Shown here: piece after piece, positions 8,148 through 8,642 of the stretch | Layout of the letters: every line of letters begins with the position of its first letter | Position numbering within the stretch: position 1 is the stretch's first letter | NCBI GenBank assembly: GCA_030689605.1 | Contig: JAUYFT010000014.1 | Coordinates: 1-37,142 of the forward strand | Length of the DNA: 37,142 bases | From: a bacterium | Lineage (GTDB): Bacteria > Patescibacteriota > Patescibacteriia > PEXW01 | Direction of reading: 5' to 3' | Position numbers and translations under genes: made by a program | The notes under the pieces: generated by a model | Told to the model about the DNA's origin: nothing | The model's database searches: none | The model's input: the letters and a program-made list of their open reading frames with translations, nothing else

Positions 8148-8176
8148 TTGACAAGAGGTCAAATTCCTGCTATACT
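8148..8176 (+). promoter_or_regulatory. Consensus sigma70-type promoter of the ncRNA candidate
   Basis: TTGACA - 17 nt - TATACT. Confidence 0.8.
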
Positions 8177-8182
8177 CCTTGC

Positions 8183-8608
8183 AGAAAGATACAAAGCTCT
8201 TTGATTTCCATTGACTACTGCACTTGGGCAAACCAAGGAGCGAGAAGTACGACAGCTGGCAACACCGAAAACGCGTTGTGTGGCTTCTGTTCTACTACTC
8301 GTCATAGCCGTCCACACGGCTGACTGAAAAGAAAAACTAGGAGAATATAAAAATTCCCTAGCATAAAAGGTTAACTCTTACGCTTTCGGGCCAGGGGTAT
8401 AACCACAAGAGTGGTAGTCACTATTCATCGAAAAATGTGGAAAACGATGAATGCAAAGTTTAGCGAGGTTCATGGCATGCGCTGCCCGGTTGACGATTTC
8501 TCACGCTGAGGAGTCGCGAACCGGGTGGCACACGTCTACTCACTAAACTATTTAAGGGCTCAGCCTCTTAATCTCTATGATATACAGGCCTCGAGCCCTT
8601 TTATTTTT
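8183..8608 (+). ncRNA. Structured noncoding RNA candidate, unassigned family
   Basis: No long ORF; near-consensus promoter; stems ATTCATCG/CGATGAAT, CTAGG/CCTAG, GTTTAG/CTAAAC, GCTGCCCGGTT/AACCGGGTGGC; ends in GGGCTC...GAGCCCTTTTATTTTT. Confidence 0.65.
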
Positions 8609-8642
8609 GTGTAAAAAAGCGTGGATAGAGTATACTGGCTGC

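Follow-up and report, generated by a model that had tools for sequence, protein, structure and literature searches.

A probably trans-acting structured RNA of an uncatalogued family in CPR bacteria

What is encoded between positions 8183 and 8608 of the window (the whole stretch of DNA that was analysed, 37,142 nucleotides)? The first-pass annotation of this DNA described the interval as a structured RNA of unknown family with its own promoter and terminator. We found that the promoter, the fold, the terminator and the negative results with Rfam models supported this description. We are almost certain that there is an RNA family here, and the RNA probably acts in trans. The full reading, that 8183-8608 is a standalone, trans-acting structured RNA of an uncatalogued family that is present in one copy per genome in many CPR lineages, is in our judgment likely.

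Extent, transcription signals and fold

The RNA gene and its parts are as follows. R2 and R3 are covariance models described below.

8148-8176, plus strand: promoter TTGACA-17-TATACT with an extended -10; 11 of 12 consensus positions match and the TG is present
8183-8608, plus strand: RNA gene, ~425 nt, its start placed from the -10 and its end at the T-tract
8196-8202, plus strand: 5' element GCTCTTT, boxA-like, with a putative role; invariant across four close relatives
8213-8226, plus strand: strand a (GACTACTGCACTTG), lineage-specific; its partner in the minimum-energy fold is 8406-8419
8240-8249, plus strand: strand b (GCGAGAAGTA), lineage-specific; its partner in the minimum-energy fold is strand c
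8251-8292, plus strand: 5' hairpin (P0/P2), from the fold and RNAalifold
8291-8303, plus strand: strand c (TCTACTACTCGTC), the 5' strand of the class-wide helix P1, from the R2 and R3 alignments and P1 covariation
8304-8324, plus strand: hairpin P3, whose loop TCCACA (8311-8316) kisses P6
8325-8336, plus strand: A-rich single strand (TGAAAAGAAAAA), with the family-wide conserved form GAAAAACAAAAACAAAA
8337-8361, plus strand: hairpin P4, in the close family only
8365-8404, plus strand: helix P5 (AAAAGG...ACC), where conservation is highest
8406-8419, plus strand: strand d (CAAGAGTGGTAGTC), the 3' strand of P1, from the alignment and P1 covariation
8423-8452, plus strand: hairpin P6, whose loop TGTGGA (8436-8441) pairs with the P3 loop; covarying
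8458-8548, plus strand: long hairpin P7, with many double-sided changes in four relatives
8554-8608, plus strand: P8, bipartite intrinsic terminator GGGCTC...GAGCCC-TTTT, from the fold and four-sequence RNAalifold; most family members are alike

The near-consensus promoter and the terminator ending at ~8608, both claimed in the first-pass annotation, were present. The same kinds of signals flank the RNA across the family. The promoter spacer was 17 bp in 45 of 48 family members, and the promoter score was at least 11.5 (of 12.5) in 34 of the 48, compared to none of 480 shuffles. The median length of the RNA was ~398 nt, and the 3' end was mostly a bipartite terminator.

The RNA strand from 8183 to 8608 folds at -155 kcal/mol, compared to a mean of -109.5 for shuffled sequences (z = -7.88). 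None of 100 shuffles was as stable. Three close relatives had z values of -6.2, -8.6 and -7.3, and one architecture was common to all four. RNAalifold on the four close sequences gave 109 pairs, 28 of which had changes on both sides.

All of the stems proposed in the first-pass annotation were found where it had placed them: CTAGG/CCTAG is hairpin P4, ATTCATCG/CGATGAAT is hairpin P6, and GTTTAG/CTAAAC around GCTGCCCGGTT/AACCGGGTGGC is P7. It had missed P1 (8291-8303 with 8406-8419), the pairing of the P3 and P6 loops, and a distribution that extends far past close relatives. The anatomy common to the family is, from 5' to 3', the promoter, P1, hairpin P3, the A-rich strand, P5, hairpin P6, the long hairpin P7 and the terminator.

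Distribution and covariation

A DNA search of 96 relatives matched only genomes of the same genus or family (G001, G002 and G003). We also scanned with covariance models, covering the class (apparently ABY1, to judge from named records and GTDB) and a phylum-wide sample of CPR (Patescibacteria). Model R1 described the P1-P5 core, R2 was rebuilt, and R3 was made from 31 members. Starting from four relatives, we obtained matches in 16 of 384 class genomes with R1 (E ≤ 0.1, with weak matches in other families), in 61 of 384 with R2 (E ≤ 0.05) and in 114 of 384 with R3 (E ≤ 0.01); these E-values are rough, coming from a short calibration. Every positive genome had one match, never two. The prevalence is a lower bound, since the scans scored few candidates per genome. 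Universality is unproven, as detection also grew with each model round.

Outside the class, R3 matched 27 of 384 genomes of the phylum-wide sample, and three of these matches read as false, lying inside genes. At least a dozen genuine-looking members came from the same phylum outside the class. Within the class, 18 of 20 weaker matches looked genuine on reading; genuine and false matches were told apart by reading, without a blind rule. Four model matches were rejected as lying in genes or apparently in genes (L029, L083, L090 and L092), and two others (L124 and L129) had no promoter and no convincing core. Distant members, when read, were intergenic, with a promoter upstream and, at the 3' end, a long hairpin followed by a terminator, and shared the core 'GAAAAACAAAAAC...AAAAAGG[P5]ACCACAAGAACGGTAGA'. 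The motif occurs in records named Ca. Parcubacteria SURF_31, Ca. Kerfeldbacteria, Ca. Jacksonbacteria and Ca. Falkowbacteria.

The first-pass annotation had named the lack of both a transcript and conservation in relatives as a result that would count against it. Conservation was clear and was accompanied by covariation. The class-wide P1 consists of strand c (UYUACUGUUCGUA) and strand d and encloses P3, the A-rich strand and P5. Over 31 members, 87.8% of cells were paired, compared to 72.1 ± 0.9 in shuffled controls, in an alignment that was fitted to the model and so favours it somewhat. In the same alignment, double-sided changes occurred in 24 of 27 pairs (15.6 shuffled), the covariation score was 0.497 (0.208 shuffled), and controls in which the structure was slid along the alignment had at most 54% of cells paired. 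For P1, 12 of 13 pairs had double-sided changes over the 31 members. For P5, 94.9% of cells were paired, and in its lower helix 9 of 11 pairs had double-sided changes.

Pairing between the P3 and P6 loops

Reading members side by side, we noticed that the loops of P3 and P6 are complementary. In the source genome UCCACA (8311-8316) can pair with UGUGGA (8436-8441). Elsewhere the pairs have other sequences: CCGAC/GUCGG, CCUGAC/GUCAGG, UUUCGAC/GUCGAAA, GCUCAC/GUGAGC, CCAUGA/UCAUGG, UCUAGUC/GACUAGA, UCUAAUC/GAUUAGA, UCUAACC/GGUUAGA and GUUCAC/GUGAAC. A complement of at least 5 bp was present in 52 of 65 members overall: 26 of 35 from the class, 11 of 13 from outside the class and 15 of the 17 weaker matches. 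With partners mismatched, at least 5 bp was reached in 13%, 8% and 21% of cases, respectively, and in each of the three sets none of 50,000 permutations equalled the observed pairing sum. P6 was in no model, and P3 was unpaired in R2 and R3. Thus, the kissing signal is independent of the search. In two families, f55 and f140, the pairing was missing or very short.

The loops could also kiss between molecules, in which case the RNA would be a natural homo-oligomer that builds a multimer as GOLLD, ROOL and OLE do. There is precedent in these other large bacterial RNAs, for which RNA-only homo-oligomers are established (PMC12286853), and loops whose complementarity to each other is kept by covariation in a single-copy RNA are compatible with such an assembly but do not prove it. 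However, the P3 and P6 hairpins lie close together (in the source genome only 3 nt separate the end of P1 from P6), making intramolecular pairing simpler, and we consider the homo-oligomer unlikely.

Neighbouring genes, known RNAs and possible roles

The next alternative is that the region is a long cis-acting leader, working as a riboswitch or attenuator and using its 3' terminator to regulate the gene that follows. In favour of this, an intrinsic terminator closes the RNA. Also, a dksA/traR zinc-finger gene (directly downstream at five of the loci read) or lspA (at two) comes next in several lineages, which belong to two or more classes; one or the other was seen in a number of families, two of which are outside the class. 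But the downstream gene is not of one constant class, being rnhB in the source genome and yet another gene in family f55. In addition, rnhB has a TATACT of its own (8631-8636) after the terminator and just 5' of its ATG (8643), which is conserved in G001 and G002, and we saw no strand that would compete with P8 as an anti-terminator. The differing downstream genes and the TATACT of rnhB favour a standalone transcript, and we regard a cis-acting leader as quite improbable. Because the neighbours vary, the RNA is probably a trans-acting housekeeping RNA.

The first-pass annotation had suggested looking for homologues upstream of rnhB. These exist, with covariation, in the close family. The element of G001 and G002 has a CMP-kinase-like gene on one side and rnhB on the other; the G003 contig shows the kinase side and stops at the other. 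Beyond the close family the link to rnhB does not hold. The position of the TATACT, a few bases before the ATG, suggests that the rnhB mRNA may be leaderless or nearly so. The upstream ORF of ~400 aa was considered and dropped; it is not one family, its product being the C-terminus of a DinG helicase, RecA or a polynucleotide-phosphorylase-like protein, or belonging to no known family.

Could the RNA be a strongly diverged form of a known housekeeping RNA (SRP RNA, 6S RNA, tmRNA or RNase P RNA)? It is single copy, with a strong promoter and wide conservation, and 6S and SRP RNAs were not otherwise found in the genomes tested. However, all Rfam models failed at the element. Scans with Rfam 15 gave no gathering-score match at the element in the window, at the locus or at the distant member loci scanned, and between 8050 and 8700, allowing E up to 10, nothing was better than E = 1.7, which is chance level. 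This includes an antisense near-match to NsiR1 (E 1.7), which we rejected. A significant Rfam match was the other result that the first-pass annotation had named as counting against an unknown family.

RNase P RNA and tmRNA are accounted for by separate loci, and we rejected both identities. The annotation had asked whether their genes occur elsewhere: RNase P RNA (RF00010) is on contig C18 of the same genome (207 bits), with no match at the element, and tmRNA (RF00023) scored above its cut-off at other loci in the sister genomes G001-G003. At the element there was no RF00023 match, and no tRNA-like ends or tag ORF were seen. ARAGORN found only a tRNA-Gly in the window. The RNA resembles tmRNA in its length of ~400 nt and its multiple helices.

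The SRP RNA identity was rejected as well. Like SRP RNA, this would be a structured housekeeping RNA, and the genomes tested that have it are without SRP RNA, but the element has neither the domain IV motif nor a model match. SRP RNA (RF00169) was found in none of 21 genomes with a model that was positive in 13 of 14 controls, and its partner protein is missing, as the Ffh M domain (PF02978) was found in 0 of 7 genomes compared to 14 of 14 controls. Loss of SRP has been published for Parcubacteria (PMC4508563). Across the group examined here, SRP seems to be lost, in agreement with that report.

For 6S RNA (RF00013), there were no matches in 7 genomes, with a model that itself was positive in only 6 of 14 controls. 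Both RNAs are single copy and would act in trans, but where 6S RNA forms a single long hairpin opened by a central bubble, this RNA has a multi-helix, pseudoknotted core. Taken together, the earlier remark that the region carries no RNase P, tmRNA or SRP signature was borne out by the models, and a diverged known RNA is very improbable. The first-pass annotation had left two branches, a divergent housekeeping RNA or a new class. The known housekeeping RNAs are excluded, and therefore the new class remains.

We found no match for this RNA in the open-access literature. OLE, ROOL and GOLLD are like it in being large, highly structured, single-locus bacterial noncoding RNAs that came from comparative genomics and have loop-loop contacts. 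They are longer. The RNA described here differs from them in having no Rfam model match, another architecture and a home in CPR bacteria.

That the region is a small-protein messenger whose untranslated regions are structured is strongly disfavoured and hardly credible: a 24-codon ORF starting from the ATG at 8473, inside P7, can be seen by eye, but the longest ORFs in family members are not above chance (median 35.5 aa, compared to 34 in shuffled sequence), in keeping with the earlier observation that there is no long ORF, and indels and compensatory base changes dominate.

For the preferred reading, a standalone RNA acting in trans, we picture the following. A strong sigma70-type promoter would yield an RNA of ~400 nt that ends at the intrinsic terminator. 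P1, as its covariation indicates, would close a core holding P3, the A-rich strand and P5. Kissing of the P3 and P6 loops, along with the A-rich strand, may lock this core into a compact fold, which might serve as an RNA-protein scaffold. The product would be an abundant housekeeping RNA, perhaps working on the transcription or translation machinery in a 6S-like kind of role. A role in transcription or translation is a guess, and a doubtful one; the boxA-like element, and dksA as a neighbour, hint at it weakly, and the likeness to 6S RNA in this respect is equally a guess. A further reading, somewhat short of an even chance, is that this is an ancestral, near-universal, CPR-specific housekeeping RNA, retained as a single copy by cells from which SRP has disappeared, whose function resembles that of no known bacterial RNA and which is possibly a natural multimer.

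CPR bacteria make up a very large, mostly uncultured share of bacterial diversity and have minimal genomes. An RNA of 400 nt that is conserved despite such genome reduction is likely to be important to the cell. It would join the few noncoding RNAs that are widespread in bacteria, could serve to mark CPR genomes, and would present a well-defined object (promoter, core and kissing loop) in the search for its partner and function.

The 5' element, GCUCUUU or GUUCUUU just 3' of the start in many members, resembles boxA of rRNA leaders. It matched at 9 or more of 11 positions in 17 of 48 members (3.1 expected), and its family-wide score was 396, where the best shuffle reached 363. In the same genomes, most rRNA leaders had no match to it. 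We keep the label boxA-like and withhold a boxA identity because an obvious equivalent was seen in just one rRNA leader (L099, in genome G163) among those read. The 16S leaders in these genomes are mostly without an obvious canonical boxA. RNAalifold suggested that GCUCUUU pairs with strand d, and we dropped this pairing, which showed no covariation across distant members.

The source lineage may have an additional feature. Its minimum-energy fold contains the pairs a-d and b-c, and forcing the class-wide c-d pairing (P1) costs 5 kcal/mol. It is possible that strands a and b (8213-8249) displace P1, giving a predicted two-state fold or switch in this lineage.
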